IMG/VR virus record: IMGVR_UViG_3300030099_002710
Span: 1 to 37,678 of that record
DNA from: a virus
DNA: 37,678 nt
Reading direction: 5' to 3' (one strand)
Part shown: positions 7,681-31,119 of the stretch, one piece after another
How the letters are laid out: each line of letters begins with the position of its first letter
Numbering within the stretch: position 1 is the first letter of the stretch
The notes under the pieces: generated by a model
Database searches by the model: none
What the model was told of the DNA's origin: nothing
The model's input: only the letters and a program-made list of their open reading frames with translations
Made by a program: the position numbers and the translations under genes

Positions 7681-7706
7681 AGTTATATAATAATTTTTTT
7701 TTGTGT

Positions 7707-10874: not shown

Positions 10875-10903
10875 AATAATTAACTCCTTAATATTTAATT
10901 TTA

Positions 10904-13263: not shown

Positions 13264-13286
13264 CTATATAACTCCTTACCATTGAA

Positions 13287-13315: not shown

Positions 13316-13336
13316 TGTTAAATAAATTTTAATTAA

Positions 13337-13651: not shown

Positions 13652-13670
13652 ATATATAAGGAGTATGTAA

Positions 13671-16036: not shown

Positions 16037-16047
16037 AATTACTCCTA

Positions 16048-16254: not shown

Positions 16255-16256
16255 AA

Positions 16257-17203: not shown

Positions 17204-17205
17204 AA

Positions 17206-17604: not shown

Positions 17605-17620
17605 ATATATACTCCTATAT

Positions 17621-17634
17621 ATTAGTTAGTTAAT
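17621..17634 (-). promoter_or_regulatory. Dispersed leader palindrome upstream of the 132-aa gene
   Basis: In gene orientation ATTAACTAACTAAT is followed by ATATAGGAG and the ATG. It lies between the stop of the 46-aa gene (17637) and the ribosome site. Same layout as at 18109, 20239 and 21609. Confidence 0.65.
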
Positions 17635-17636
17635 AA

Positions 17637-17777
17637 TTAATTTAGCTTTTCATCATCAATAAAAAATTTGACATGGACAAAGCCACCTTGCATTGATGAT
17701 ATGGTGTATTTGAATTTGCAGGTTTCCAACCACGCAATAAATTCTTTTAACTTTTCAGTTTGTATAGTTGCACTCAT
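17637..17777 (-). CDS. Small hypothetical protein, 46 aa
   Basis: A short gene whose ATG overlaps the stop of the 106-aa gene as ATGA, which strongly supports translation by coupling. The product begins MSATIQTEKLKEF and ends FFIDDEKLN, with an IAWLETCKFKY middle. It ends three bases before the palindromic leader of the next gene. Too short to assign. Confidence 0.7.
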   Translation of the reverse strand: MSATIQTEKLKEFIAWLETCKFKYTISSMQGGFVHVKFFIDDEKLN

Positions 17778-18094
17778 TTTAAGTAAGAGTATCTATCTAC
17801 AAAACCTTGACTGTTTCTAGCCACTAAACCTGTATCAATACCTGTTTGATTTTCTAATTTGCCTAACACTTTAGCTACTTCAAATTTTATAGTTTTGATT
17901 AGTAGTTCAGTCTCTAATTCGCTAACCTCAAAACCCTCATTGTCTTTAAGAACTTGTCTAGCTATATCACTTCTAATATCTAAGCCACCAAAAGCATTTT
18001 TGTAAACCTTATCCTCGAGATCAATGATGGTATCTAGTATTAATGTTTTCGCTAGATGATTTACATTTTTAACTTCTTGATTTTTATATTTCAT
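17774..18094 (-). CDS. Hypothetical protein, 106 aa
   Basis: A helical protein (VKNVNHLAKTLILDTIIDLEDKV split by a glycine turn, then VSELETELLIKTIKFEVAKVL). It has no cysteine or catalytic pattern. AGGAGTATTT precedes the ATG and the dispersed palindrome lies 15 bp upstream. It follows the VWA-like gene, separated by a hairpin. Confidence 0.8.
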   Translation of the reverse strand: MKYKNQEVKNVNHLAKTLILDTIIDLEDKVYKNAFGGLDIRSDIARQVLKDNEGFEVSELETELLIKTIKFEVAKVLGKLENQTGIDTGLVARNSQGFVDRYSYLK

Positions 18095-18108
18095 AAATAC
18101 TCCTATGT

Positions 18109-18122
18109 ATTAATTAGTTAAT
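18109..18122 (-). promoter_or_regulatory. Dispersed leader palindrome upstream of the 106-aa gene
   Basis: In gene orientation TAACT-ATTAACTAATTAAT-ACATAGGAG. The segment TTAATACATAG is shared with the leader of the small-terminase gene at 23219-23229, which lies on the other strand, so the element keeps its orientation relative to the gene. Confidence 0.65.
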
Positions 18123-18129
18123 AGTTAAA

Positions 18130-18152
18130 TGCTTGTTTTGACAGAACAAGCA
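18130..18152 (-). promoter_or_regulatory. Intercistronic hairpin after the VWA-like gene
   Basis: TGCTTGTT and AACAAGCA form an 8-bp stem around a 7-nt loop. There is no T run on either side, so it looks like an RNA stability or processing hairpin more than a terminator. Confidence 0.5.
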
Positions 18153-18177
18153 AACTGTTTACCAACGAATAGCAATG

Positions 18178-19344
18178 TCATTCGACATCTACTATTTCCC
18201 CAAAAGTAAAATACTTAGTTGCCTCAGTAGTAGCCCATATCACCGGATAGTCAGGCTCTACTAATCTATCGCAATAACAATACCCATCTGTAAGATAAAC
18301 CAAGTAAGAAATATCGTTGTCTAACTCTTTATCTATGTATTTGAATACAGGCTCATAGTCAGTAGCACAACCCCATAAGTGATCTAAGGTAATCTTTTCA
18401 CCCTTATAGAATGTCTTAACTTCTTGAACATGATCATCACAATAAATAAGACTAACCTTGTTAGGCTTTCCTACTGTAATAATATTGTTGATAGCATCTA
18501 AGAACATAGCTTTAGTGTCCTCATAGATAGAACCGCTAGTATCAATAGCAATAGCTATGTTTTGATTAGGTTCTTTTTCAACGCTAGGTAGATACATATC
18601 TTGATAGATAAATCTCCTATCAGGATTGTTAAAGTTGTAATCGCATGGGGTGAGATTATCTAACATATGATTAGCTAAGACATCTTCCCAATCAACCTTA
18701 TCCTGCTTAACTGATTCAATCATCTTTTGAAAAGCAGAACCTTTACCACCTATACCCTTAGCAGATTGAACAGCTTGTAGAACGCTAACATTAATCTCTC
18801 TCTCAAGTTCTTTAATGTCCGCATCTGATAGTGAACCGCCCTCATCATTGACAGCATCTATGACCTCACCCCAAGATGGTGCTTTGCCATCATCACCACT
18901 ATCTTCACCATCACCATCACCATCACCGGAATCGTCTTTTGATTCTTGATAAACAAGGTCATAGACTTTCTCAGTTTGCATACTTGCGTATTCAGAATTG
19001 TGTAATCCACCCTCAGGCAAGATGAAACCATCTTCTAGCAGAATGTCATTAATGACATAATCTCCTGCTACATTCCAATAGTAGCCGTCCCTTTTGCCCC
19101 TGCGTAGATGGTGCTTATAGACAACATGAAGTATCTCATGGGCTATAACTCCTACCCTCTCTTGATGGGTAATACTTTTAACCCACTCAGGATTATAATA
19201 AATACGCTGTCCGTCTGTAGCCATAGTATCAAACTTATCTGATTCAATAAGTTCAAGACCTAAAGCAAGTTTGCCAAAGAAAGGATAATTCAAAACTAAT
19301 TCAGTTCGAGCCTTAATCATTTCAGGCATTATCTTATTAGTCAT
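18178..19344 (-). CDS. Metallopeptidase-like / VWA-like protein (DUF2201 type)
   Basis: Two parts are visible in 388 aa. The N-terminal part has VIAHEILHVVYKHHLRRG with HExxH at H69-E70-H73, matching the putative metallopeptidase half of DUF2201-type proteins. An Asp/Gly-rich linker lies at about 137-153. The C-terminal part is VWA-like with a MIDAS pattern: DTSGS at 268-272 and LTDG at 351-354. Proteins of this build are usually encoded with a MoxR-type ATPase, as here, and are thought to act as the metal-dependent client-binding partner of the ATPase. Whether the HExxH site is catalytic is unknown. It overlaps the DUF3150-like gene by 8 bp, so the two are cotranslated. Confidence 0.85.
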   Translation of the reverse strand: MTNKIMPEMIKARTELVLNYPFFGKLALGLELIESDKFDTMATDGQRIYYNPEWVKSITHQERVGVIAHEILHVVYKHHLRRGKRDGYYWNVAGDYVINDILLEDGFILPEGGLHNSEYASMQTEKVYDLVYQESKDDSGDGDGDGEDSGDDGKAPSWGEVIDAVNDEGGSLSDADIKELEREINVSVLQAVQSAKGIGGKGSAFQKMIESVKQDKVDWEDVLANHMLDNLTPCDYNFNNPDRRFIYQDMYLPSVEKEPNQNIAIAIDTSGSIYEDTKAMFLDAINNIITVGKPNKVSLIYCDDHVQEVKTFYKGEKITLDHLWGCATDYEPVFKYIDKELDNDISYLVYLTDGYCYCDRLVEPDYPVIWATTEATKYFTFGEIVDVE

Positions 19345-20215
19345 TGAGCCACCCCCCTAGATCATCAAGTATCTCATCTGTCTTACTTGCGATCTCATTA
19401 GCTTTATCTTTATCCTCTCTCAAGGTATTAGCATTGACATCATTACCCACGAAAATATCCATGAGTTCTTGATGTGCTTTGTGAATTTTAGAATCTCCTG
19501 CGATATTAAGATCAGGCAATACATCACAGAGATCAATAACTTTATCAATCGTTGAATCTCTAAATGTCTCACCACTCTTAATCTTCTCAGAGAAGTGTCC
19601 TAAAACACCCTGCACCTTATCAACTACCGCACCGGTGATTTCAGATAACTTAGCGTCATGCTCTTGTTGAGCATTAGACTTGAGTTCGTCTATCTCATCT
19701 TTAGATAGATTAACTCTAATATCATCTGTATTAGGTATTGGGCTTTTGATCACTTCGCATGAGAAACAATCTTTAATATCATCAAGCGAGGGAAAGTCTG
19801 ATATATCAAAAGTTGAGCCAAGATTACCCTTAGCCTCATCTATAATATCAGGATACTCTTTAACAAAGTCCCTCACATACAATTCCCTTGCATCACGATA
19901 CTCAGCGAATCTTTTTTCAAACTTCGATTTTGCATCAACAGGCAAAAGGTATGTGCCTTGATTATCCCAAGCATGACAAAAACCCCTGTATCCTGCACCG
20001 CTATAGATACAGTCAGTTCTAATAAGACCATCAATCTTTTTGATCTCTTTTAAGTTTTGACTGTTCGTTAGCTTTTTAGACACAGAGAAATGTTTAGCTA
20101 GAACACCATGCTTATCGGCAATTTCTTCAGATAAGCCTTTATCGACCTTAGTTCCGCCCCATTTTTTGAGATTGACTTTGATCAGGATAGCTTTTTCATT
20201 TAGCTTAGTAGCCAT
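19337..20215 (-). CDS. DUF3150-like protein between ATPase and VWA partner
   Basis: The 292-aa protein opens with a strand and KKWGGTKVDKGLSEEIAD, continues with a KKIDGLIRTDC helix and a YRGFCHAWDN...YLLPVD segment, and then is largely helical. This order fits my memory of DUF3150, a family often encoded beside a MoxR ATPase and a VWA protein in phages and bacteria; role unknown. The C-terminal helices (HQELMDIFVGNDVNAN, DEILDDLGGWLND) suggest oligomer contacts. AGGAGTATGTTTT precedes the ATG, with the dispersed palindrome 24 bp upstream. Confidence 0.75.
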   Translation of the reverse strand: MATKLNEKAILIKVNLKKWGGTKVDKGLSEEIADKHGVLAKHFSVSKKLTNSQNLKEIKKIDGLIRTDCIYSGAGYRGFCHAWDNQGTYLLPVDAKSKFEKRFAEYRDARELYVRDFVKEYPDIIDEAKGNLGSTFDISDFPSLDDIKDCFSCEVIKSPIPNTDDIRVNLSKDEIDELKSNAQQEHDAKLSEITGAVVDKVQGVLGHFSEKIKSGETFRDSTIDKVIDLCDVLPDLNIAGDSKIHKAHQELMDIFVGNDVNANTLREDKDKANEIASKTDEILDDLGGWLND

Positions 20216-20238
20216 AAAACATACTCCTATATTTATAT

Positions 20239-20252
20239 ATTAATTGGTTAAT
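20239..20252 (-). promoter_or_regulatory. Dispersed leader palindrome upstream of the DUF3150-like gene
   Basis: In gene orientation ATAACT-ATTAACCAATTAAT-ATATAAATATAGGAG. It lies in the 75-bp gap after the ATPase gene together with a strong hairpin at 20271-20285. Confidence 0.65.
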
Positions 20253-20270
20253 AGTTATCGTTGATACCTA

Positions 20271-20285
20271 GGGGGCAAAGCCCCC
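20271..20285 (-). promoter_or_regulatory. GC-rich intercistronic hairpin after the ATPase gene
   Basis: GGGGGC-AAA-GCCCCC gives a 6-bp all-GC stem five bases after the ATPase stop. No T run follows on the leftward strand, so a full terminator is unlikely; it could block 3' decay and set the ATPase to partner ratio. Confidence 0.6.
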
Positions 20286-20290
20286 ATAGA

Positions 20291-21274
20291 TCATAATGTA
20301 ATGTCTTGATATGCAACATCAAAATCAATGTAAGCCTTAGTCTTTTTAAGATCAGGATTCATTGTTGTTGCATCACTCATGCACAATACTGCAAACTCAT
20401 CAGGCAAAGTCTTTAGAAAATCTACAAACTTCCCAATGTTTTCTTTAGTCATTTTCCTAGCGACAATACCGCATACCGCATACATAACCGCAGGATCAGA
20501 ATCAAGATTAATCTTGTCAGGGTTTTTCAGGATAGTATCCATAGATGGTAGCTTTCTCCATGTTCGCAGATAGCCTACCAATTCAGCAGAAATACCCTCA
20601 CCAATAGTCCCTGCTAATAATTCCTGCTCTATGTCAGCATCAGGATTATTATCAAGTATCCTAGAGGCATACTCCCAAGAACGAGGGGTAGTATTAACTT
20701 GAGCATTAGTATCAAACACAAAGATATTCTCAGGGCGATACCTAATATAGTTAATAACCTCAGGGATAATGCGACCACTACTCAAAGCCCATGATACCCA
20801 CTCCTCAGGACAAGGCTCTAAGTTAAGGTGAATAAATCTATCACCTAATGCAGTATTAACCCTGTTTGCCCCTGCTCTATCTTGTAGCCTATTACCGGCA
20901 CTCACAATGACAGTTGATTCAGGCAAAGTGTATTCACCTAATTGTCTGTCCTTGATTAATTGGAACAGAGCATTTTGAACAGATGGGCTACCATGCGGTA
21001 ACTCATCTAAAAACAAAAGAGTTTTGGGATCATCTTCTGTCGGTAAAAATACAGGGGGATTCCACTTAGTAGTCCCATTCTCAACAGAGGGAACACCCCT
21101 CAGATCAACAGGATCAAGTAAAGCCACCCTCACATCACGAACCGCAAAGCCTAGCGAATCCGCTACCTTATGCACGATCTCAGACTTACCAATACCAACA
21201 CCGCCCCAAATAAAGGCAGGTTGATTGATAGCAATGAGATTAGCTAAGGATTTTTCTAGCTGTGTTGCTTTCAT
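20291..21274 (-). CDS. MoxR-type AAA+ ATPase
   Basis: The 327-aa protein has Walker A GGVGIGKS at 24-31, Walker B LLFLDE at 86-91, a sensor-1 type SAGNR ending at 129, and GDRF with R146 as likely arginine finger. The PVDLRGVPS insert after the first strands is typical of the MoxR/CobS-like branch. These ATPases form rings and remodel a VWA-domain partner or its client, as in metal chelatases and complex assembly. Here the partner is very probably the protein encoded two genes downstream. AGGAGTATGTATG gives the start. No peptidase or DNA-binding domain is fused. Confidence 0.9.
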   Translation of the reverse strand: MKATQLEKSLANLIAINQPAFIWGGVGIGKSEIVHKVADSLGFAVRDVRVALLDPVDLRGVPSVENGTTKWNPPVFLPTEDDPKTLLFLDELPHGSPSVQNALFQLIKDRQLGEYTLPESTVIVSAGNRLQDRAGANRVNTALGDRFIHLNLEPCPEEWVSWALSSGRIIPEVINYIRYRPENIFVFDTNAQVNTTPRSWEYASRILDNNPDADIEQELLAGTIGEGISAELVGYLRTWRKLPSMDTILKNPDKINLDSDPAVMYAVCGIVARKMTKENIGKFVDFLKTLPDEFAVLCMSDATTMNPDLKKTKAYIDFDVAYQDITL

Positions 21275-21443
21275 ACATACTCCTATATGTATTGAAACAT
21301 TAATAAAACTAAACGAATACTGTTTCGAGGTATCTCATTCAGGCATAGCTACCATGCTATACGACAGTAATAAAAGGCAAGTGTGCGAGGGAAACAAAAG
21401 GAAAAACCCTCACACACTCTAACACTCTCCACCCTAAAAGATT

Positions 21444-21593
21444 TTAAGCGTATTCCTCATTCAATAACTTTGCTAAAGCCTTATCTATTGCTTTATCCAT
21501 AGCAATAGACATAGTTGTAATCTTAGGCTTTTTGTTAGTGAATTTCTTTTTTGGTTTCCACTTGGTTTTTTTATTTATTTTTTTAGCTTTCAT
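21444..21593 (-). CDS. Small lysine-rich protein, 49 aa
   Basis: Preceded by AAGGAGTATGTATG and the dispersed palindrome. The first ~23 residues are almost wholly Lys with aromatic and polar residues (KAKKINKKTKWKPKKKF), followed by a helix (MSIAMDKAIDKALAKLL). It might bind nucleic acid; inference from charge only. It is followed by a 169-bp gap before the ATPase start in which only parts of the leader are recognised. Confidence 0.7.
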   Translation of the reverse strand: MKAKKINKKTKWKPKKKFTNKKPKITTMSIAMDKAIDKALAKLLNEEYA

Positions 21594-21608
21594 ACATACT
21601 CCTTAAAT

Positions 21609-21622
21609 ATTAGCTAGTTAAT
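21609..21622 (-). promoter_or_regulatory. Dispersed leader palindrome upstream of the 49-aa gene
   Basis: In gene orientation CTAACT-ATTAACTAGCTAAT-ATTTAAGGAG. It begins three bases after the stop of the 28-aa gene, so each small gene carries its own leader. Confidence 0.65.
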
Positions 21623-21624
21623 AG

Positions 21625-21711
21625 TTAGGTAATCATGTTGTTTACTGCAATCATACCCACGACTGCACACCAACTAATTACAATCAATGACCACCCTATA
21701 AAATTATTCAT
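21625..21711 (-). CDS. Tiny predicted membrane peptide, 28 aa
   Basis: MNNFIGW is followed by one hydrophobic segment (SLIVISWCAVVGMIAV), enough for a single membrane pass, and a short polar end. GAGGAGTAAAT precedes the ATG with good spacing, which supports expression. Tiny phage membrane peptides may act in lysis, exclusion or host-membrane interference; nothing here distinguishes these. Confidence 0.6.
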   Translation of the reverse strand: MNNFIGWSLIVISWCAVVGMIAVNNMIT

Positions 21712-21720
21712 ATTTACTCC

Positions 21721-21990
21721 TCAATAGTATTTGTTACCAGACGAATAGCCAAGGTATTTAGTTATCCCTTTTATCCTCTTGTTAATCATTTTTTGTATTT
21801 CTTTTACTTCTCTCTCAGTTATTGGGGCAATGTTTTTGCCAAAAGTTTTAGATTGACTATCTAAATCTAAGTTCTCAACGTCCCAATTACCCTCTACCCA
21901 ATATCCCTCGAGCAGATCATCTAAGCGATCTAGTATGGTCTCTTTTGCATACTTGTTAGCAGTCATTTTGACTCCATTTTTTGTAATCAT
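21721..21990 (-). CDS. Hypothetical protein, 89 aa
   Basis: AAGGAGTAAAT precedes the ATG at 21990; a second ATG eight codons on (MTANKYAK) has no comparable site. The protein is helical with a Trp-rich turn (LLEGYWVEGNWDVENL) and REVKEIQKMINKRIKGI. Not recognised. Confidence 0.78.
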   Translation of the reverse strand: MITKNGVKMTANKYAKETILDRLDDLLEGYWVEGNWDVENLDLDSQSKTFGKNIAPITEREVKEIQKMINKRIKGITKYLGYSSGNKYY

Positions 21991-21992
21991 AT

Positions 21993-22169
21993 TTACTCCT
22001 TGTTGTTTAAAACTTTTGAAATATCACCGCCACTCACATAGTCAGGCAATATCTTTTCTAAATCATTTCTACAAACAAGTGATAGTTTTTCAACCTTGTT
22101 TGCATATCCACTCATTGTTAAATAAGTCCGCATTTTTTTTGCTACTGTTTTTGCATTTACATATTCCAT
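21993..22169 (-). CDS. Small hypothetical protein, 58 aa
   Basis: The gene has an AAGGAGTAATT site and a leader of 33 bp shared with the 104-aa gene. Product: MEYVNAKTVAKKMRTYL, then KVEKLSLVCRNDLEKI and an acidic end. Its own last codons AAC AAG GAG TAA form the ribosome site of the next gene. Not recognised. Confidence 0.72.
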   Translation of the reverse strand: MEYVNAKTVAKKMRTYLTMSGYANKVEKLSLVCRNDLEKILPDYVSGGDISKVLNNKE

Positions 22170-22173
22170 AATT

Positions 22174-22206
22174 ACTCCTTTTGTTTATATGTTTATCAAG
22201 ACAATT
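22174..22206 (-). repeat. Duplicated gene leader, copy A
   Basis: On the plus strand ACTCCTTTTGTTTA and GTTTATCAAGACAATT. Both blocks recur at 22589-22613 before the 104-aa gene, with 8 extra bases (TATGTTTA) here that duplicate the junction. In gene orientation the 16-mer AATTGTCTTGATAAAC leads into AAAAGGAGTAA. A shared promoter, regulator site or a duplication remnant. Confidence 0.7.
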
Positions 22207-22225
22207 TTCATTGTTTCGCCACCAC

Positions 22226-22247
22226 TCAAGGGGGCGAACCCCCTTGA
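22226..22247 (-). promoter_or_regulatory. Very stable intercistronic hairpin with UUCG loop on leftward RNA
   Basis: TCAAGGGGG-CGAA-CCCCCTTGA, a perfect 9-bp stem. On the leftward transcript the loop reads UUCG. It lies 23 bases after the stop of the 104-aa gene. No T run follows, so RNA stabilisation or processing is more likely than termination; attenuation is possible. Confidence 0.7.
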
Positions 22248-22269
22248 TCTGTGTTGCTCATCAGTTGAT

Positions 22270-22584
22270 TTAACTCACTCCATAAAATGAATTTTGAAAT
22301 TTTGTGAATGTTGCATGAGTTTTCGCAGTTTTAAGCATTGTTTCATACTTAGCCCACGCTTTATCAAACAGCTTTTCAGCATCATCATTATTTTCAAAAC
22401 CATATTCAGTAGCAAATTCCATGCAAGAGGAATAGTTGACTGTATCAACATCTATATCAAATAGCTTTTTTGCTATCTCATCAGATGTATTTCCAAGATA
22501 TACAGTCTTTTCTCTATTCACTATGCACTCAAGCCCCAATCCTTTATCAGATGGGGATAAAAATATATTGTTTTTGTTTTTCAT
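22270..22584 (-). CDS. Hypothetical protein, 104 aa, first gene of leftward accessory operon
   Basis: The protein begins MKNKNNIFLSPSDKGLGLEC and contains a helical middle (DDAEKLFDKAWAKYETMLKTA). An AAAAGGAGTAAAT leader supports the start. It is the first gene after the structured region and would be the first translated product of the leftward promoter at 23056-23083. Family not recognised. Confidence 0.8.
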   Translation of the reverse strand: MKNKNNIFLSPSDKGLGLECIVNREKTVYLGNTSDEIAKKLFDIDVDTVNYSSCMEFATEYGFENNDDAEKLFDKAWAKYETMLKTAKTHATFTKFQNSFYGVS

Positions 22585-22588
22585 ATTT

Positions 22589-22613
22589 ACTCCTTTTGTT
22601 TATCAAGACAATT
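22589..22613 (-). repeat. Duplicated gene leader, copy B
   Basis: ACTCCTTTTGTTTATCAAGACAATT; 16 bp (22598-22613) are identical to 22191-22206. It forms the boundary between the structured region and the first leftward gene. Confidence 0.7.
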
Positions 22614-22617
22614 CAAC

Positions 22618-23048
22618 ATGGGATTAGATCACTACACACGCCACAAGTTAGCCCCTAGAGACAAGCCACGCTACACCGCAATCCTTAGCACATCAGAGAC
22701 AATCAAAAACTGTCTCCTCGTTGACACACCCTGTTTTGTGTTCAGAGGGAATCAAGTCAGCTTTAAAAACTTGCGAGGGGGGAAACGCTACTCACCCAAC
22801 AATCGCAGTATTGAGCCACCAAGACCAACACTCTCAGGACACTAGGTAAACGCACAGAGACTTGAAGTCCGGATTTTTCGTGGTGAGGATTCCTAGTTTA
22901 CCTCGTTGCGGTATTGTCCCTAGTCTCGTTGACTGCTCTAGGCAACCAACATAGTGAAGTATCGTTGCGAACCTCACTCTAGGGGACAAAAGCAGTCCCA
23001 CTATGGGCGGTTCAGAGAGGGGGCAAAAGAGCCGACAACCCCAAACAC
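22618..23048 (-). ncRNA. Candidate structured non-coding RNA or leader, GC-rich gene-free region
   Basis: No convincing gene fills 22585-23231 (647 bp). Its core is about 50% G+C (47-58% in the blocks I counted between 22861 and 23040) against roughly one third elsewhere. It is dense in inverted repeats: GAGACA/TGTCTC (22696-22701, 22711-22716), ACACA/TGTGT with a bulge (22724-22741), AGGTAAAC/GTTTACCT (22844-22851, 22896-22903), TTGTCCCTAG/CTAGGGGACAA (22914-22923, 22979-22989), GACTGCT/AGCAGTC (22931-22937, 22991-22997) and CATAGTG/CACTATG (22950-22956, 22999-23005). A leftward promoter candidate ends just to the right, so the region may be transcribed leftward as a ~430-nt RNA or as a long leader of the accessory operon. 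It could instead be a replication origin. tmRNA, RNase P, 6S and group I intron signatures were sought and not found. Confidence 0.45.
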
Positions 23049-23055
23049 AAGACCT

Positions 23056-23083
23056 AATATATAGATTACCCCACAAATATCAA
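23056..23083 (-). promoter_or_regulatory. Leftward sigma70-type promoter before the structured region
   Basis: On the minus strand TTGATA (23083-23078) and TATATT (23061-23056) are 16 bp apart, five of six consensus bases each. Transcription would start near 23049 and run through the GC-rich region into the gene at 22584. Confidence 0.55.
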
Positions 23084-23127
23084 GTAAAAAATGATATTAA
23101 TTTTCTACAGATGTTCGCCACCAATAC

Positions 23128-23156
23128 TTGTGTTGCTTACGAAGTAAGCGGATAAT
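23128..23156 (+). promoter_or_regulatory. Rightward late promoter with palindrome in the spacer
   Basis: TTGTGT (23128-23133) and GATAAT (23151-23156) are 17 bp apart. The spacer contains GCTTAC-GAA-GTAAGC (23135-23149), a perfect 6-bp-arm inverted repeat, so a bound protein would block or adjust the promoter. It drives the terminase side, about 70 bp before the small-terminase ATG. Confidence 0.55.
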
Positions 23157-23170
23157 AAGGATAAAATGAT

Positions 23171-23187
23171 AGTAAGCACTAACTATA
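23171..23187 (+). repeat. Direct repeat flanking the small-terminase gene, left copy
   Basis: AGTAAGCACTAACTAT matches 15 of 16 bases with AGTAAGCACTCACTAT at 23703-23718, directly after the small-terminase stop. GTAAGC also occurs in the promoter palindrome at 23144. Candidate binding sites for the small terminase (pac) or a regulator. Confidence 0.55.
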
Positions 23188-23208
23188 GGCACATAAAAAA
23201 AATTAAAT

Positions 23209-23222
23209 ATTAATTCGTTAAT
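23209..23222 (+). promoter_or_regulatory. Dispersed leader palindrome upstream of the small-terminase gene
   Basis: ATTAATTCGTTAAT followed by ACATAGATT and the ATG at 23232. The only clear plus-strand gene leader with this element; it replaces a normal ribosome site, which is not visible here. Confidence 0.55.
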
Positions 23223-23231
23223 ACATAGATT

Positions 23232-23702
23232 ATGAGTAAAGATAAGAGTAAATCAGGAAACAAAGTAGCTAACATATCAGGGCTTACTCCTAAGCAGGAG
23301 AAGTTTTGTCAGGGTGTCATCTCAGGTAAGACCGCAAGTGAATCATACAGAGATGCTTACAGCGTAGAGAATATGAAAGACAGTAGCATATGGACAGAGG
23401 CTAGTAAGTTAATGAGCAACCCTAAGGTCTCCCATAGGATACAGCAAGGGATTAAGCGTAAAAACGATTATGCAGTTACTTCAGCTATCTCTCTCAGACA
23501 GTTCATTATGGAACGGCTACAAGCAGAAGCTACTGATACAAACAACAACGAATCAGCAAGAATCAGGAGTTTGGAACTTTTAGGAAAGGTTTCAGAGGTG
23601 GCACTATTCACAGAGAGAGTAGAAAGTATCACCAATGATAAGACGAGTGATGAGATCAGGATTGAGTTAGAACAAAAGATACAGCAAATGTTTGGCAACT
23701 AA
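23232..23702 (+). CDS. terS: Terminase small subunit
   Basis: The 156-aa protein has the Terminase_2-type N-terminus LTPKQEKFCQGVISGKTASE followed by a SYRDAY helix, a helix-turn-helix used to recognise packaging DNA, then helices for ring formation and an acidic C-terminal EIRIELEQKIQQMFGN. It would select the genome end and regulate the large subunit. It is the first late gene, preceded by a promoter with an operator-like palindrome and by the dispersed leader. No Shine-Dalgarno sequence is evident. Near-identical 16-bp repeats flank the gene. Confidence 0.88.
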   Translation: MSKDKSKSGNKVANISGLTPKQEKFCQGVISGKTASESYRDAYSVENMKDSSIWTEASKLMSNPKVSHRIQQGIKRKNDYAVTSAISLRQFIMERLQAEATDTNNNESARIRSLELLGKVSEVALFTERVESITNDKTSDEIRIELEQKIQQMFGN

Positions 23703-23719
23703 AGTAAGCACTCACTATC
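23703..23719 (+). repeat. Direct repeat flanking the small-terminase gene, right copy
   Basis: AGTAAGCACTCACTATC begins on the base after the stop codon. One mismatch in 16 to the copy at 23171. Confidence 0.55.
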
Positions 23720-23727
23720 ACGCAAAA

Positions 23728-23763
23728 CCCCATTAATATAACCCCACTCCCCCCCAACCCCCC
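23728..23763 (-). other. G-run tract on the minus strand, potential G-quadruplex
   Basis: The plus strand has C4, C4, C7 and C6 runs (23728-23731, 23742-23745, 23749-23755, 23758-23763); the minus strand therefore reads G6-TT-G7-AGT-G4-N10-G4. In an AT-rich genome this is conspicuous. It lies just after the small-terminase gene and its right direct repeat. It might stall polymerases or mark a packaging region. Confidence 0.5.
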
Positions 23764-23829
23764 AATATTATTTTTTGTCTGACTGTAGGGTACATACTAT
23801 TTTGCACATATAATTTCATAATTTTCATA

Positions 23830-23846
23830 GGGGCACCCCCTTTTTT
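23830..23846 (+). terminator. Weak terminator-like GGGG-CA-CCCC with T run
   Basis: GGGG/CCCC is followed by six T and later TTT runs. The loop of two bases forces opening of the last pair, leaving a 3-bp stem, so termination would be weak. Position after the small-terminase gene is sensible. Confidence 0.35.
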
Positions 23847-23866
23847 CTTTTTCGACCAACTTAGGA

Positions 23867-23896
23867 TTGGCTTTTTTTTTAGAATGTTCGTATAAT
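23867..23896 (+). promoter_or_regulatory. Promoter of the LexA-like gene
   Basis: TTGGCT (23867-23872) and a perfect TATAAT (23891-23896) are separated by 18 bp. Transcription would start near 23903, giving a 29-nt leader. The -10 lies wholly inside the LexA-type box. Confidence 0.65.
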
Positions 23897-23900
23897 GTTC
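23886..23900 (+). promoter_or_regulatory. LexA (SOS) box of the alphaproteobacterial type, GTTC-N7-GTTC
   Basis: GTTC (23886-23889), seven bases GTATAAT, GTTC (23897-23900). GTTC-N7-GTTC is the established LexA site in alphaproteobacteria. The larger unit AATGTTCGT repeats exactly at 23883-23891 and 23894-23902, an 11-bp period or one helical turn. Bound LexA would cover the -10. By composition about 0.5 exact matches are expected by chance in the whole window, so position is the stronger evidence. Confidence 0.65.
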
Positions 23901-23931
23901 GTGGGTCCCATACACCCCATACATATATACT

Positions 23932-24186
23932 ATGACAAACAAACAATTAAAGTTATTAGAAGCGATAGAAGCATACTGGGAAGAATTTAATTGTGGACCA
24001 TCACTAGATGCTTTAGCTTATACGCTAGGCATATCATCTAAGAGCACAGTACACGCTATGTTAAAGAGATTAGAAGATAATGGGTGGGTTACTATGCAAC
24101 CTAATAAGTGGCGTACTGTGATGAGCACAAGAAAAAGTCCTTTTAAAAAATTTGACTCAGGTATTGACGAACAAGTGAAGATGTGA
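23932..24186 (+). CDS. LexA-type winged-helix DNA-binding protein without peptidase domain
   Basis: The 84-aa protein resembles the LexA N-terminal domain: TNKQLKLLEAIEAYWEE, a GPSLDALAYTLGISSKSTV recognition helix-turn-helix, and MLKRLEDNGWVTMQPNKWR for the wing. Full LexA (~200 aa) adds a Ser/Lys self-cleaving domain; that is absent, so this protein cannot be inactivated by RecA-driven autocleavage. It might act as a constitutive repressor or competitor for LexA sites, or as a phage switch protein. A LexA box lies over its promoter, so autoregulation or host SOS control is plausible. It lies between the two terminase genes and just before a CTAG palindrome array. No clear ribosome site. Confidence 0.82.
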   Translation: MTNKQLKLLEAIEAYWEEFNCGPSLDALAYTLGISSKSTVHAMLKRLEDNGWVTMQPNKWRTVMSTRKSPFKKFDSGIDEQVKM

Positions 24187-24224
24187 AATTATGCACATAA
24201 TAGGGAGAGCTATCGGCAGATCAA

Positions 24225-24296
24225 CTAGTATTATACTAGCTAGTTTAAAACTAAGTTTTAATTTATATAGTTTAATACTATCTAGTTTAATACTAG
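24225..24296. repeat. CTAG palindrome array upstream of the large terminase
   Basis: The 119-bp gap before the large-terminase gene contains CTAGTA-TTA-TACTAG (24225-24239, perfect), TAGTTT-A-AAACTA (24241-24253), and two exact 13-mers TAGTTTAATACTA at 24268-24280 and 24283-24295, the same 13-mer as before the primase gene. Each extended copy is CTAGT-TTAAT-ACTAG-like. Likely regulatory sites for a dimeric protein; both arrays end within 25 bp of a start codon. Confidence 0.75.
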
Positions 24297-24305
24297 GAAA
24301 AGTTT

Positions 24306-25865
24306 GTGGCACTTTGTCTGGTCATACATACTCCTTACACACATGTATATTACTCAACAGAAGATGAGGTGCCACCATTGTTTGATTTAAGCAAACTAAG
24401 TCAATTACCCATAGAACAACAAAAGATGCTCTTAGAGCTTCTCTCAGAGTATGAGAGGGCTAAGATTAAAGAAGGTTGTAGAGATAGCTTTCTATCTTTT
24501 GTAAAAGAAATGTGGGTGGCTTTTATTGAAGGACATCATCACACTATTATGTCTGATGCTTTTAATAGAGTTAAAGAGGGTAAGTTAAAGCGTTTGATTA
24601 TTAACATGCCCCCTCGTCATACAAAGTCTGAGTTTGCATCTTATTTATTACCTGCATGGTTTCTAGGATGTTTTCCTGAGAAGAAGATCATTCAGGTTGC
24701 TCACACCGCAGAATTAGCTGTGGGTTTTGGTCGTAAGGTTAGAAACCTTGTCGGCTCAGAAGACTATAAAAAAGTTTTTACAGATGTAGGATTACAATCT
24801 GATTCTAAAGCAGCAGGTCGCTGGAATACCAATAAGGGCGGAGAATACTTTGCGATTGGTGTAGGCGGTGCTGTAACCGGTAAAGGTGCGGACTTGTTAA
24901 TCATAGATGATCCACACTCTGAACAAGAGGGACAAAGCAACGATCCCTCTGTCTTTGATAAGGTCTATGAATATTATACCTCTGGACCAAGACAGCGTTT
25001 ACAGCCGGGTGGTGCGATTATTATCGTAATGACAAGGTGGCATAAACGAGATTTAACAGGACAAATACTTAAAGCCTCTGCACAAAGAGATGGTTCTGAT
25101 GAATGGGAAGTTATAGAGTTCCCTGCTATCTTGCCCTCAGGTAGAAGTTTGTGGCAAGAGTTTTGGGATATTAAAGAATTAGAAAAGCTAAGAGCAGAAC
25201 TGCCTTTAGCTAAATGGTCTGCTCAATATCAACAGAACCCTACCGCAGAAGAATCAGCTATCATTAAAAGAGAATGGTGGCGTGTTTGGGAACAAGATTA
25301 TCCACCACAATGCGATTTTATTATACAGTCATGGGATACTGCGTTTTTAAAAACACAGCGTTCTGACTTTTCAGCTTGTACAACATGGGGTGTTTTTTAT
25401 CAACCTGATGATCATGGAGTTACACAACCACAAGTAATTTTATTAGATGCTTACAAAGAAAGGCTTGAGTTTCCTGATTTAAAAAAACGAGCTTTTGAAA
25501 TGTATCAAGAGTGGCAACCTGAAGCGTTTATTGTAGAAGCTAAAGCAGCAGGTATGCCTTTAATATTTGAACTAAGACAAATGGGAATACCAGTTTCAGA
25601 ATATACCCCTAGTCGTGGAAACGATAAAATAGCTAGGGTTAATGCGGTTGCAGATTTATTTGCATCCGGAATCGTATGGGCTCCAGAAAGGAAGTTTGCA
25701 GAAGAAGTAATTGAAGAATTTGCTTCTTTTCCATCTGGGGACCATGACGATTTAGTAGATTCATCTACACAAGCGTTGATAAGATTTAGACAAGGTGGTT
25801 TTATTGGTTTAGAATCAGACGAACCAGAAGAAGACTTACCCCCCAGAGAAGCAAATTATTATTAG
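24306..25865 (+). CDS. terL: Terminase large subunit
   Basis: An ATPase plus nuclease in 519 aa. The ATPase has an atypical Walker A PPRHTKSE near 102-109 and Walker B LLIIDDP near 199. The RNase H-like nuclease has SWDTAF near 343 (Asp), FIVEAKAAG near 413 (Glu) and GDHDDLVD near 478 (Asp pair). It drives DNA into the prohead and cuts it. The frame opens with GTG at 24306, preceded by TAGGAAAAG. The first ~20 codons look unlike terminase and contain CATACATACTCCT, the reverse of the leftward gene leader; a later start (for example the GTG near 24370) is possible. Terminase_6-like overall. Confidence 0.93.
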   Translation: MALCLVIHTPYTHVYYSTEDEVPPLFDLSKLSQLPIEQQKMLLELLSEYERAKIKEGCRDSFLSFVKEMWVAFIEGHHHTIMSDAFNRVKEGKLKRLIINMPPRHTKSEFASYLLPAWFLGCFPEKKIIQVAHTAELAVGFGRKVRNLVGSEDYKKVFTDVGLQSDSKAAGRWNTNKGGEYFAIGVGGAVTGKGADLLIIDDPHSEQEGQSNDPSVFDKVYEYYTSGPRQRLQPGGAIIIVMTRWHKRDLTGQILKASAQRDGSDEWEVIEFPAILPSGRSLWQEFWDIKELEKLRAELPLAKWSAQYQQNPTAEESAIIKREWWRVWEQDYPPQCDFIIQSWDTAFLKTQRSDFSACTTWGVFYQPDDHGVTQPQVILLDAYKERLEFPDLKKRAFEMYQEWQPEAFIVEAKAAGMPLIFELRQMGIPVSEYTPSRGNDKIARVNAVADLFASGIVWAPERKFAEEVIEEFASFPSGDHDDLVDSSTQALIRFRQGGFIGLESDEPEEDLPPREANYY

Positions 25866-25873
25866 GAGATTGA

Positions 25874-28309
25874 ATGGCAGAAAAACCATTAAAAACCCCA
25901 GACAAGATAGTTAAAGATTCTCCTTTAGAAGTTTTAGTAACTAACCCTGATGAGGTCGCAGTATTGACCGAAGACGGGGGAATGATTATAGATTTTGAAG
26001 AAGGTGCTGAACTTGGCACTCCAAACTTTGACGACAACATAGCAGAGTTCATGGAAGATGGTGAACTAGAAGTATTAGCATCAGAGCTAATACAGTATTT
26101 TAATTCTGATAAAGAATCACGCAAAGATTGGGAACAAACTTATACTAAAGGCTTAGACCAGCTAGGATTAAAGATAGAAGAAAGAACTTTGCCTTGGCAG
26201 GGTGCTTGTGGTGTATTTCATCCTTTACTCACAGAGTCTGTTGTTAGATTTCAAGCTGAGACTATTACAGAAATATTTCCAGCTAAAGGTCCTGTTGATG
26301 TAAGAATTGTTGGTGAAATAGATCAAGCTAGTCAAGATCAGTCTGTTAGAGTTAAAGATTATTTAAACTATTTGCTCACAGAAAAAATGACAGAATATAG
26401 AACTGAAACAGAAAAACTGTTATTTAATTTACCACTGGCAGGTTCTGCATTTAGAAAAATTTATTATGATCCCATGCTGGATAGACCTGCAAGTATGTTT
26501 GTTCCAGCAGAAGATTTTGTTGTAAGTTATGGTGCATCTGATTTAACAACTTGTGATCGTGCTACACACATAATGAAGAAAAGCACCAATGATATTAAAA
26601 AATTACAGGTCATAGGTTTTTATAAAGATGTAGATTTACAAGAACCCTCAGATGATTTAACAAACATTCAGTCTAAATACAACGAACTAACAGGGGAAAG
26701 ACAAACTTACGAAAATGATAATCGCCACACCATATTAGAAATGATGGTTGATTTAGATTTAAAAGGTTTTGAAGATAGAAAAGATGGACAAGTAACAGGT
26801 ATTGCATTGCCTTATGTAATTACTTTAGATCATCAATCAAATAAAATATTAGCAATACGCAGAAATTTTATTGAAGATGATCCATTAAAAAAACGCAGAC
26901 AACACTTTGTTCATTATCAATACTTGCCCGGAATGGGATTTTATGGCTTTGGATTGGTTCACTTAATAGGTGGCATAGCTAAATCTGCTACAAGTTTATT
27001 AAGACAACTAGTAGATGCAGGAACACTATCTAACTTGCCGGGTGGTTTAAAATCAAGAGGTTTAAGAATTAAGGGCGATGATACTCCTATTATGCCCGGA
27101 GAGTTTCGTGATGTGGATGTGCCGGGTGGTGCAATTAAAGATAATATTACATTTCTCCCCTACAAGGAACCATCTACTACCTTATACTCCCTTTTACAAA
27201 ACATTGTAGAAGAAGGTAGAAGATTTGCTTCTTTAGCTGATATGAAAGTCTCTGACATGAATAATCAGGCTCCAGTCGGCACCACACTCGCATTATTAGA
27301 AAGATCATTAAAAGTTATTGGATCAGTGCAAAGCAGGATTCATAACTCTATGAAACATGAATTAAGAATATTATCTAAAATAATTTATGATTTTGGACCT
27401 ACAGAATATCCTTATAGTATAAAAGGTAAAGAGTTATTAAAAGAAGATTTTGATGGCAGAGTTGATGTAATACCGGTATCTGATCCTAATGCTTCTACTA
27501 AAGCACAAAAGATTATGCAGTATCAAGCTGCACTACAGTTATCACAACAAGCACCACAAATGTATAACATGGAAGAACTTCATAGACAGATGCTTGATGT
27601 ATTAGGTATTAGAGATGCAGATAAGATTGTTCCACTTGAAACTGAGATAGCACCTACTGATCCAGTATCAGAAAATATGAATTTATTAAATAGAAAACCT
27701 GTTAAAGCATTTATGTATCAGGATCACGAAGCACATATTAAAGTTCACATGGCTGCTATGAACGATCCTAAGATGAGAGAAATGGTAGGACAAAGCCCTA
27801 ATGCTAATGCTATCTTAGCTGCGTTTACAGAGCATGTAACAGAACACATAGCTTTTCAATATCGTAAAGAAATTGAAAAACAACTTGGTGCACCATTGCC
27901 ACCGCCTGATGAACCGCTACCAGAAGATATTGAACTGCGTTTATCAGAACTTGTATCTGAAGCTGCTGAAAGAGTTTTAGCTTCAAGTCAAGCAGATGAA
28001 AGACAAGAAGAAATTAGAGAGCAACTAGAAGACCCTGTAATACAGCAAAGAGAAAGAGAGTTAGACATTAGACAAGCTGAAGTCCAAAGAAAAATGAAAG
28101 CTGATGCAGAGAGAATTGCTCTTGATTTAGAAAAAGCTAAAGCAACCACTGAAGTTGAAAAAGAAAGGATAGCTTCACAAGAACGCATAGCTGGTGCTAA
28201 CATAGGATTAAAAGCTGCTACAGAAAGTAAAAAAATATCTAGCAAAGAACAAATAGAAGGTGCTAAGATAGGCAAAGATATAGCAGAAACATTACTGGAT
28301 AACGAGTGA
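25874..28309 (+). CDS. Portal protein
   Basis: At 811 aa this is a large portal of the podovirus type. The core has ERTLPWQGACGVFHPLL, EDPLKKRRQHFVHYQYLPGMG-type segments split over residues 330-360, and a GFGLVHLIGGIAKSATSLLR helix, which I associate with marine phage portals. The C-terminal ~120 residues (RERELDIRQAEVQRKMKAD onward) form a long charged coiled coil, comparable in place to the P22 portal barrel. The portal forms the dodecameric DNA gate, holds the terminase during packaging and later the connector proteins. AGGAGATTGA precedes the ATG, nine bases after the terminase stop. Confidence 0.9.
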   Translation: MAEKPLKTPDKIVKDSPLEVLVTNPDEVAVLTEDGGMIIDFEEGAELGTPNFDDNIAEFMEDGELEVLASELIQYFNSDKESRKDWEQTYTKGLDQLGLKIEERTLPWQGACGVFHPLLTESVVRFQAETITEIFPAKGPVDVRIVGEIDQASQDQSVRVKDYLNYLLTEKMTEYRTETEKLLFNLPLAGSAFRKIYYDPMLDRPASMFVPAEDFVVSYGASDLTTCDRATHIMKKSTNDIKKLQVIGFYKDVDLQEPSDDLTNIQSKYNELTGERQTYENDNRHTILEMMVDLDLKGFEDRKDGQVTGIALPYVITLDHQSNKILAIRRNFIEDDPLKKRRQHFVHYQYLPGMGFYGFGLVHLIGGIAKSATSLLRQLVDAGTLSNLPGGLKSRGLRIKGDDTPIMPGEFRDVDVPGGAIKDNITFLPYKEPSTTLYSLLQNIVEEGRRFASLADMKVSDMNNQAPVGTTLALLERSLKVIGSVQSRIHNSMKHELRILSKIIYDFGPTEYPYSIKGKELLKEDFDGRVDVIPVSDPNASTKAQKIMQYQAALQLSQQAPQMYNMEELHRQMLDVLGIRDADKIVPLETEIAPTDPVSENMNLLNRKPVKAFMYQDHEAHIKVHMAAMNDPKMREMVGQSPNANAILAAFTEHVTEHIAFQYRKEIEKQLGAPLPPPDEPLPEDIELRLSELVSEAAERVLASSQADERQEEIREQLEDPVIQQRERELDIRQAEVQRKMKADAERIALDLEKAKATTEVEKERIASQERIAGANIGLKAATESKKISSKEQIEGAKIGKDIAETLLDNE

Positions 28310-28506
28310 GTGGATCAACTGAAAACATAGTAGAAGCTATACAGAAGAAGATTCGTGAGCATATGAATGAACATGCTGATCATTTATCCGGTGGTGGATG
28401 TAAAAATTTTGAGGAATACAGATATTTAACAGGTGTAATATCTGGACTTGCCTTAGTAGAAAGAGATATACTCGACCTATTACAAATAGTAGATCGTCAA
28501 CATTGA
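28306..28506 (+). CDS. Small hypothetical protein, 66 aa
   Basis: It begins with GTG overlapping the portal TGA (GTGA), indicating coupled translation. The protein is helical: ENIVEAIQKKIREHMNEHAD, a Gly-rich turn with one Cys, and LALVERDILDLLQIVDRQ. Small helical proteins often sit between portal and scaffold genes in marine phages; role unknown. Confidence 0.8.
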   Translation: MSGSTENIVEAIQKKIREHMNEHADHLSGGGCKNFEEYRYLTGVISGLALVERDILDLLQIVDRQH

Positions 28507-28515
28507 CGCAAGGAC

Positions 28516-28530
28516 CTAGACCTAATCTAG
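28516..28530. promoter_or_regulatory. CTAGA-CCTAA-TCTAG inverted repeat upstream of the GroES-like gene
   Basis: Five-base arms with a five-base spacer, the same geometry as CTAGT-TTAAT-ACTAG at 13637 and 24283. It lies between the small 66-aa gene and CAGGAG of the next gene. Possibly a third site of the same kind. Confidence 0.4.
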
Positions 28531-28545
28531 TGCACAGGAGAAAAT

Positions 28546-28935
28546 ATGACAAAACCTGCAAAAGATATTCAACCAAAAGAGGTTGAAGCAACAGACAAAG
28601 CTAAACAACTCCCTGTTCCGAAGGGATACAAAATTCTAATCGCATTACCTGAAATTGAAGAAGCTACCAAAGGTGGAATCATTAAGGCATCTGAAACTCG
28701 TAGAGTTGAAGAAGTTGGTTCTATCATAGGGTTTGTTTTGGAAATGGGTGATGATTGTTATAAAGATAAGAACAGATTTCCAAATGGTCCTTATTGTAAA
28801 AAGGGCGATTGGATTATTATGCGTTCTTATTCTGGCACTAGATTTATGGTGCATGGAAAAGAATTTCGTTTAATCAATGACGATAGTGTAGAAGCTGTTG
28901 TCCAAGACCCAAGAGGAATAGTAAAGGTAATTTAA
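28546..28935 (+). CDS. GroES-like co-chaperonin
   Basis: The 129-aa protein has a GroES-type beta barrel: PVPKGYKILIALPEIE, a mobile-loop-like KGGIIKASETRR, then VGSIIGFVLEMGDD, and KKGDWIIMRSYSGTRF with a terminal strand. GroES/gp31-like phage proteins cap host GroEL to fold the coat protein. Its position between portal and scaffold, upstream of the coat gene, fits that role. The mobile loop lacks the classical hydrophobic IVL triplet but has GGII. ACAGGAG precedes the ATG by six bases. Confidence 0.78.
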   Translation: MTKPAKDIQPKEVEATDKAKQLPVPKGYKILIALPEIEEATKGGIIKASETRRVEEVGSIIGFVLEMGDDCYKDKNRFPNGPYCKKGDWIIMRSYSGTRFMVHGKEFRLINDDSVEAVVQDPRGIVKVI

Positions 28936-28936
28936 T

Positions 28937-29992
28937 ATGTCTGAAAATAATACCGCAAATCAGGAAGTTGAACAGGTAGAACAACCTGTGCAAACTTCAA
29001 GAGAAGAAAAATTCTTTGGAGTAAAACATAAAATAGGTAAAGATAAAGATGCTCCTGAAGAAAACAATCCTGAACTTCAAGTAGAAGTCATTGATGATAG
29101 ACCACCTGAAGATCGTAAACCACCAAGGTCTGAAACTGCATCTGATGATGTAGAAGAAGAAATAGATGGGATTAACGAGAAAGTTCAGAAACGCATTGAT
29201 AAAATCAAGTATGAGTTTCACGAAGAAAGACGAGCAAAAGAAGCAGCCGAACGAGTAAGAGAGGAAGCTGTAGCTTATGCTACAAATGTTCAAAGTGAAA
29301 ATAAAAGACTATCAGCTTTAATTAATAAAGGTGAAGAAGCCTTGTTAGGACAAATCACAGCTAAGTCTAGTGCTGAGTTAGAACAAGCAAAAGCTGAGTT
29401 TAAAGATGCTTATGAAGCTGGTAATACAGATAAAATGCTAGAGGCAAATGAAAAAATTCTTGCAGCACAAGTTGATAAGAAATCTGCTTCTGATAAATTA
29501 GCTTATTATCAAAGACAACAGGAAGTTGCTCAACAACAGATACAGCAACCTGTTCAACAACCTCAGCAACCACAAGTGTTTATTGACCCTAGACAAACTA
29601 AATGGTTGCAAGAAAACACATGGTTTAATCATCCTGATTATGAAGAAGCCACTGGTTTTATCATGGGGTTACATAAAAAATTACTCATACAAGAAGGTGT
29701 TAATCCAAATTCTGATGAATACTATGATAGGATTAATAAAGGCAAAGAACAGATTTTTAAAATTTTAGAGAGCAAAGATAATGCTGTAGCTGCTGAACCT
29801 GAAGAAATTCAAGAAGAAGCAGAAACTGTGATCTCTAAAAAACCCTCGAATGTTGTAGCACCTGCAACAAGAAATAATGGTGCTATGCCTCGCAAAGTAC
29901 AGTTAACAGCAACCCAAGTGTCCCTCGCAAGGCGTTTGGGAATACCAATAGAAGAATACGCCAAACAACTCGCAAAAACGGAGAATAAATAA
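28937..29992 (+). CDS. Capsid scaffold protein (putative)
   Basis: A 351-aa, highly charged, low-complexity protein. The acidic N-terminus (about 1-90) leads to a long coiled coil (VQKRIDKIKYEFHEERRAKE through the QVDKKSASDKLAYYQRQQ region), a Gln/Pro run (QQPVQQPQQPQ), and a C-terminal basic helix with VSLARRLGIPIEEYAKQLA, typical of the coat-binding end of scaffolds. Its place two genes before the coat gene agrees. It starts one base after the GroES-like stop. Confidence 0.8.
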   Translation: MSENNTANQEVEQVEQPVQTSREEKFFGVKHKIGKDKDAPEENNPELQVEVIDDRPPEDRKPPRSETASDDVEEEIDGINEKVQKRIDKIKYEFHEERRAKEAAERVREEAVAYATNVQSENKRLSALINKGEEALLGQITAKSSAELEQAKAEFKDAYEAGNTDKMLEANEKILAAQVDKKSASDKLAYYQRQQEVAQQQIQQPVQQPQQPQVFIDPRQTKWLQENTWFNHPDYEEATGFIMGLHKKLLIQEGVNPNSDEYYDRINKGKEQIFKILESKDNAVAAEPEEIQEEAETVISKKPSNVVAPATRNNGAMPRKVQLTATQVSLARRLGIPIEEYAKQLAKTENK

Positions 29993-30474
29993 TGGCAGAT
30001 GAAAATAAAGTAAACGAAGAAGTTACTAGAGCAGCAAGAGAAACAGAATCCAGAGAGGCTTCTGCAAGACCCATAACATGGGAACCACAATCAAAACTAC
30101 CTAGCCCAACACCGCAAGACGGATGGGTGTTTAGATGGGTAGCAACTAGTGTTTTAGGTCAAGCTAATAACACTAATGTAAGTGCTAAATTTAGAGAGGG
30201 ATGGGAACCTGTGAAAGCAGAAGATCATCCTGAATTAAAATTAGTAACAGATGTGGATTCAGAGTGGGCTAAAAAAGGCAATTTAGAAGTAGGTGGTTTA
30301 TTACTTTGTAAAGCTCCAAAAGAGCTTATGGATCAAAGAGATGCTTACTACAGAAAAATGGCTGCGGAACAAATGGAAGCTGTTGATAACACTTATTTAA
30401 GTGAAAATGATCCTCGTATGCCTCTGTTAAAACCAGATCGCAAAAGTAGGACTACATTTGGTGGCTCTAAGTAA
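29992..30474 (+). CDS. Hypothetical virion protein, 160 aa
   Basis: TAATG couples it to the scaffold gene. After a charged N-terminus comes PQDGWVFRWVATSVLGQANN, KFREGWEPVKAEDHPEL and a helix KELMDQRDAYYRKMAAEQME, ending in a basic RKSRTTFGGSK. I recall similar proteins between scaffold and coat genes of marine phages; they may be minor head proteins. No enzyme motif. Confidence 0.8.
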   Translation: MADENKVNEEVTRAARETESREASARPITWEPQSKLPSPTPQDGWVFRWVATSVLGQANNTNVSAKFREGWEPVKAEDHPELKLVTDVDSEWAKKGNLEVGGLLLCKAPKELMDQRDAYYRKMAAEQMEAVDNTYLSENDPRMPLLKPDRKSRTTFGGSK

Positions 30475-30526
30475 TATTTAATTTTTGCTTGGGGCTGTTG
30501 TTACAACTCTTTATAGGAGAATATAA

Positions 30527-31105: not shown

Positions 31106-31119
31106 TTTAGGAGAATAAT

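Follow-up and report, generated by a model that had tools for sequence, protein, structure and literature searches.

The closest known case is that of GIL01, a temperate tectivirus of Bacillus thuringiensis, whose late promoter P3 carries LexA boxes of the host type with the late genes behind it, and whose gp6, the product of an early gene, is a LexA DNA-binding domain without the C-terminal domain, 44% identical to host LexA in that region (PMC6182141). As described there, this truncated LexA binds DNA alone and may activate; it recognizes a separate palindrome at the -35, activates with the LexA co-repressor gp7, and K38 in its recognition helix matters (PMC6182141). Sites for a host regulator likewise precede phage genes and time the cycle in the CtrA-dependent promoters of alphaproteobacterial phages (lytic deferment), although there the regulator is another one, CtrA of the cell cycle (PMC9437464). 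On the host side, infection of SAR11 HTCC1062 with the lytic phage HTVC027P is reported to raise recA, lexA, umuD and umuC, with nrdA up 3.12- to 8.87-fold at 9-15 h (PMC12753301). In the open-licence PMC literature on LexA and SOS in SAR11/Pelagibacter, as far as its available text goes, no LexA box is described in any pelagiphage.

Here we describe a locus of similar wiring in the virus record IMGVR_UViG_3300030099_002710, analysed over a stretch of 37,678 nucleotides (the window). The features of the locus and of the genes around it are as follows.

23232-23702, + strand: terminase small subunit gene, upstream of the promoter (PF03592, 2.8e-08; phrog_51, 8.2e-19)
23829-23841, + strand: terminator-like hairpin and T run, separating the small terminase gene from the promoter
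23867-23872, + strand: candidate -35, TTGGCT, 18 bp from the -10; found at that spacing in 2 of 33 relatives
23883-23900, + strand: invariant 18-bp core AATGTTCGTATAATGTTC, or AATGTTC-GTAT-AATGTTC, a 7-bp direct repeat with an 11-bp period
23886-23900, + strand: predicted SOS-type (LexA) operator GTTC-N7-GTTC, from its pattern, likeness to SAR11 lexA sites and conservation
23891-23896, + strand: -10 TATAAT, within the operator
23903-23909, + strand: GGGTCCC at the expected transcription start (GGGTCCC or AGGTACC in the aligned relatives)
23932-24186, + strand: gene for an 84-aa predicted LexA-type winged-helix protein without the peptidase domain (PF01726, fold search)
24164-24192, + strand: second promoter-like site, TTGACG-N17-AATTAT, at the end of the winged-helix gene (9 of 12 matches)
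24306-25865, + strand: terminase large subunit (TerL) gene, first large gene of the late block (phrog_38, 8e-104)
25874-28309, + strand: portal protein gene, late block (phrog_1216, 1.5e-34)
31120-32058, + strand: major head protein-like gene, late block (phrog_371, 1.2e-22)

As in GIL01, a LexA DNA-binding domain standing alone is tied to late genes whose promoter holds a LexA-type box, in this instance in an unrelated phage. There are also differences: gp6 is an early product, whereas here the winged-helix gene opens the late block; gp6 activates from its own palindrome, whereas here the operator is a direct repeat lying over the -10, which makes repression the likelier mode; and GIL01 is temperate, whereas this is a tailed phage in which no tyrosine integrase was found. 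The search with PF00589 gave 0 of 7 records (the window, the related contigs G125, G126, G127 and G130 of 55.7-58.8 kb, HTVC027P and HTVC023P) and was positive in 14 of 14 control genomes; a lysogeny switch at this locus was rejected on the strength of this tyrosine-integrase search. The gp6 palindrome GaCACAnnTGTGaC has no match in the window at up to 2 mismatches.

The winged-helix gene sits between the genes for the small and large terminase subunits; portal and head genes come next, the whole series being on the + strand, and from this gene order the promoter appears to head the late block. In the 56-kb relative G125, which has the box at 37398, the bases lying in ORFs of at least 100 aa were counted by strand over 1-31500 and 43000-56034: the + strand holds 17,973 against 636 in 1-19000 and 11,364 against 711 in 43000-56034, while 19001-31500 has more - coding (6,147 versus 2,670). 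Evidence for the second promoter-like site is weak, the region having 40 such sites against 51.8 in shuffles. In many relatives the match to TerL begins only at residue 25 or beyond, so that its true start is possibly TTG 24378 and not GTG 24306.

Several further elements were noted in the surroundings. Palindromic repeats of the TAGTTTAATACTAG type occur at 24225-24296, between the winged-helix gene and TerL, and at 13614-13650, directly before a primase/helicase gene; they are possible packaging, replication or regulatory sites. Past the small terminase gene, GTAAGCACTCACTATC lies at 23704-23719, and its ACTCACTATC part recurs 3' of that gene in several relatives; the idea that this conserved part is a T7-type promoter was considered, and the window holds one exact copy. 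Elsewhere, a 2538-aa protein (44-7660) carries LPD38 and a zeta-toxin/kinase-like domain, and on the - strand, at 18178-21274, a MoxR-like ATPase, a DUF3150-like protein and a DUF2201 VWA protein adjoin one another.

The earlier note on this DNA, made from its letters, had read the 84-aa product as a LexA winged helix lacking the cleavage domain, and profile and fold searches agree. PF01726 (LexA_DNA_bind) is its best Pfam match, at 39.5 bits against a cut-off of 23.7, and the full LexA profile TIGR00498 covers residues 1-64 only (36.5 bits, cut-off 110.95), so that by this match the C-terminal self-cleaving peptidase/dimerisation domain is absent. The best PHROG match is phrog_3502 (1.4e-12), a family of 131 positions with no assigned function, of which positions 49-114 only are spanned. 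The predicted structure (mean pLDDT 74.7) finds LexA first when compared with the PDB by Foldseek: 3k2z at E 5.5e-4 and the LexA-DNA complex 3jso at E 2.5e-3, with TM-scores on query length of 0.75 and 0.74. Other winged helices, of the MntR and MarR types, reach a TM of about 0.6, and a single match has an E below 0.001; a profile search of PDB sequences returned 3k2z alone (E 0.0086). By these models the protein is a LexA winged helix without the cleavage domain.

Its recognition helix comprises residues 37-49, KSTVHAMLKRLED. Alphaproteobacterial and SAR11 LexA (TIGR00498) have the same winged helix, an S-K-S-x-x-H helix and the operator GTTC-N7-GTTC, and differ in possessing the peptidase and dimerisation domain that the phage protein lacks. 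Although identity between phage protein and SAR11 LexA is 29-32% across 63 residues, the start of the helix is close (SKSTVHAM in the phage, SKSGIHRL in SAR11 LexA), with K37, S38 and H41 common to both. On account of these shared residues, host LexA should bind the box too, unless it is excluded.

The sequence GTTCGTATAATGTTC at 23886-23900 is the sole GTTC-N7-GTTC of the window when both strands are scanned, and TATAAT fills most of its N7, just as the earlier note had it. The same note's warning that about half a chance match was to be expected also stands: the computed expectation is 0.72 per window, 52 of 100 shuffles contain at least one site, and the count by itself is not significant and was rejected as evidence. 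A matrix built from SAR11 operators ranks the box as the top-scoring site of the window at 14.7 bits, and with it the boxes of two close relatives score 19.9 (L016) and 23.1 (L023) and the host sites 13.1-25.1; however, 12 of 60 simulated windows reach 14.7 bits, or 25 of 60 once the nrdA sites are dropped from the matrix, and it was likewise set aside as proof. The significance of the box comes instead from its conservation, described below. Two other details of the initial description hold in part. TTGGCT is present 18 bp from the -10, but beyond the two relatives listed above it is not kept at that spacing; with so weak and non-conserved a -35, the promoter may need an activator. The direct repeat given as AATGTTCGT with an 11-bp period is kept in relatives as AATGTTC, while its final GT varies. 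A rough G-run/C-run/T-run pattern, terminator-like, recurs in 19 of 32 relatives.

The IMG/VR database yielded 63 relatives of the 84-aa protein, of which three cut at a contig end were left out and 60 were read. They form two clades: 34 with an SKST[VI]HA helix (84 aa) and 26 with an SRST[VI]H[AS] helix (130-156 aa). Conservation of the box before homologous genes had been set beforehand as a test, and AATGTTCGTATAATGTTC stands upstream of all 34 SKST-clade genes, at a distance of 45-49 nt in 33 cases and of 164 nt in the remaining one. The alignment was made without this long-spaced case and without another that has 66 nt of upstream sequence; the window was added and duplicates were discarded, and in the resulting 28 unique upstream sequences the 18-mer is invariant (28/28), while the flanks and the -35 vary. 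The element is therefore real and conserved. In the long-spaced case, locus L297 (its contig is also that of L006), the box stays at the promoter and is separated from the winged-helix gene by 118 additional bases that may hold a short ORF (by eye). Over their whole length, the SKST contigs G125, G126, G127 and G130 contain 1, 2, 1 and 1 GTTC-N7-GTTC sites.

The SRST clade is built differently. None of its 26 loci (one of which has just 108 nt upstream) has the box within 150 nt upstream; 19 have TTCGTATAATG and then AAACGTTC and have lost the GTTC halves, TATAATG is lacking at that place in five (L330, L332, L334-L336), and two further loci gave another site. L028, on the same contig as L330, shows an 11-bp direct repeat. 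Where 410 nt or more of upstream sequence is available (16 SRST loci), every locus has instead GAAC-N7-GAACGTTC, 325-401 nt ahead of the gene; by eye this site, in L028, L031, L033 and L034 among others, resembles the second site of SAR11 lexA genes described below. Also by eye, in L028, L031 and L034, before TerL, the -35 of the TTGACG site is framed as AAAC-N7-GAAC. Residue K37 differs between the clades and stands in the recognition helix, as does the lysine K38 that matters in GIL01 gp6 (PMC6182141). Operator layout and recognition helix thus change together, probably as one evolutionary event, as far as comparison of these sequences can tell.

SAR11 genomes were reached by a 16S pattern, and the set consists of those among the matches listed. 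In the family of one such genome, LexA scored above the cut-off in 99 of 118 genomes. We read 36 lexA loci, six from one search and the best-scoring 30 from the search of the 118-genome family, and in 36 of 36 GAAC-N7-GAAC, which is GTTC-N7-GTTC on the opposite strand, lies 37-43 nt before the start of the LexA match; a second site, GTWC-N7-GTTC, fits 27 of them. Of 20 genomes searched for recA, 18 loci were obtained and all have GAAC-N7-GTAC upstream, and GTTCTTGTTTTGTTC, again GTTC-N7-GTTC, precedes both of the two umuD-like loci read. The view that the phage element follows the alphaproteobacterial SOS operator, here overlapping a promoter -10, is in keeping with these loci as judged by sequence, and GTTC-N7-GTTC is predicted to be an SOS operator of SAR11.

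The nearest likeness to the phage site lies before nrdA. Of 397 SAR11 genomes, 88 contain the form AATGTTCNTATAATGTTC and none its reversed control; 309 lack this strict form, which we count against the explanation preferred below. Among the AATGTTCNTATAATGTTC loci listed (n = 30), an NrdA-like protein starts 88-93 nt downstream in every case when N-termini are judged by eye, and a strict N-terminal motif flags 21 of the 30; one of them, L381, was confirmed as the ribonucleotide reductase alpha subunit (633 bits). The exact phage 18-mer occurs in three of the 397 genomes (G171, G197 and G383), and two such sites were read (L379 and L381). The 15-mer GTTCNTATAATGTTC has three exact matches in 20 SAR11 genomes, each before an nrdA-like gene; allowing one mismatch it is not enriched in the same number of genomes (12 matches versus 20 for the reversed control), which likewise counts against that explanation. 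In the genomes that have it, this SOS-type box lies over the -10 of the SAR11 nrdA-like genes (L360-L389). For that part of the SAR11 genomes, nrdA is predicted as a probable SOS target.

Taking these comparisons together, the box is very probably an SOS-type operator, and that host LexA binds it is probable from the shared operator and helix. We also lean, with less assurance, towards binding by the phage protein, and the combination in which both would bind falls just short of an even chance. Three other readings were weighed. In the first, the phage protein is the sole reader and works as a self-contained autorepressor on the late block; its site would resemble host operators through a LexA origin or by convergence, with host SOS uninvolved. 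The close spacing of operator and gene (45-49 nt in 33 of 34 relatives, 164 nt in one), the joint difference of operator and helix between the clades, and the 1, 2, 1 and 1 sites of the four long contigs, which point to no wider phage regulon, all suit it; but it leaves unexplained that the identity of the 18-mer with a SAR11 nrdA-type site extends into the flanking AAT, and the residues shared with SAR11 LexA would let host LexA bind unless something excludes it. We consider it unlikely. More doubtful still is that host LexA alone reads the box and the winged-helix protein acts elsewhere, for example as an activator at another site like GIL01 gp6, or in packaging. The operator fits the host operator set, the -35 is weak, and the truncated LexA of GIL01 does bind a different palindrome and activate (PMC6182141); against this, operator and protein class coincide across the 60 relatives read, and the gp6 palindrome is absent from the window at up to 2 mismatches, although another protein would have another site. 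That the 18-mer is just a strong constitutive host-type promoter with incidental GTTC repeats is very improbable: -10 elements are conserved anyway and 19 of 26 SRST loci keep TTCGTATAATG without the GTTC halves, yet AATG and TTC beyond the -10 are invariant in 28 of 28 SKST sequences next to bases that vary, and like sites precede SAR11 lexA, recA and nrdA-like genes.

The 18-mer pattern is not confined to this family. Its 17 fixed bases occur in 79 IMG/VR contigs, of which 34 encode the family's helix motif within the next 600 nt and 45 do not; in 23 of these 45 the sequence lies inside ORFs, as called by a simple script. Fourteen of the 45 contexts were read, with regulators named by eye, and some of those outside ORFs have the look of promoter operators. 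Loci L398, L414, L418, L423, L397, L401 and L449 have the 17 bases in unrelated, often GC-rich phages, beside Arc- or XRE-like genes (by eye) or AATGTTC arrays with an 11-bp period. Since some of the 45 stand beside such regulators, the sequence alone does not name LexA as its reader.

Relatedness and the operator together make SAR11 the likely host group. TerL is 55-58% identical to that of the Pelagibacter phages HTVC027P and HTVC023P, of 023Pt_psg01 and of a gammaproteobacterial phage; for HTVC027P/HTVC023P the values are 55-56% for TerL and 41-43% for the portal (56% and 41% in HTVC027P itself). Portal relatives (18 records) include Pelagibacter, Roseobacter, Caulobacter, cyanobacterial and other phages, among them a gammaproteobacterial one, and relatives of TerL, primase, portal and the DUF2201 protein give mixed hints as to the host. 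No tRNA genes that might hint at the host were found in the window or in five loci scanned. HTVC027P and HTVC023P, which do infect SAR11, have no GTTC-N7-GTTC at the matching place, and a tblastn search of isolate phages (25 records) found no close relative of the protein, all matches being below 60% identity with E of at least 1e-3 and none in HTVC027P. SOS control is therefore not general in this phage group.

The reading that we prefer, and hold to be evenly balanced between right and wrong, places the late-block promoter in the host SOS regulon: LexA would silence it until SOS, and the phage winged helix would autoregulate on the same site. The promoter at 23867-23903 would open the block from the winged-helix gene through TerL, portal and capsid onward. 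Early in infection, host LexA on the operator over the -10 would keep the block silent; phage replication would then yield single-stranded DNA, RecA would drive LexA self-cleavage, and the block would open at the stage of the host's own SOS and nrd genes. A late promoter with an nrdA-type operator would accordingly open alongside a rise in SOS transcripts and nrdA such as that seen in HTCC1062. The winged-helix protein, as first product, would most likely occupy the same GTTC half-sites and limit its own promoter. A protein occupying 23883-23900 covers the -10, which makes repression the more probable outcome, and because it has no self-cleaving domain, the phage protein would persist under SOS; we infer autorepression after host LexA is gone. 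For the suggestion that the protein holds host SOS genes shut there is no direct support; infection by HTVC027P, in which no relative of the gene was found, raises SOS transcripts (PMC12753301).

In its fullest form, which we offer tentatively and hold to be less likely than not, a lytic SAR11 phage would have enrolled its late block in the host SOS regulon through a copy of the host nrdA-type operator, and a non-cleavable winged helix would take over as LexA is destroyed, so that SOS would serve as a late clock, with a hand-over between two proteins on one site. The locus suggests a marine virus that times its late genes by the alarm system of its host. Few bacteria of the ocean are as abundant as SAR11, and the timing of their phages' genes is little explored; both the 18-bp site and the 84-aa protein are of a size that allows direct testing. 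If true, virion production would be coupled, through a late promoter responsive to the host's damage alarm, to DNA damage and phage replication, and the locus would be a second, apparently independent case of the GIL01 logic, in an unrelated phage class.
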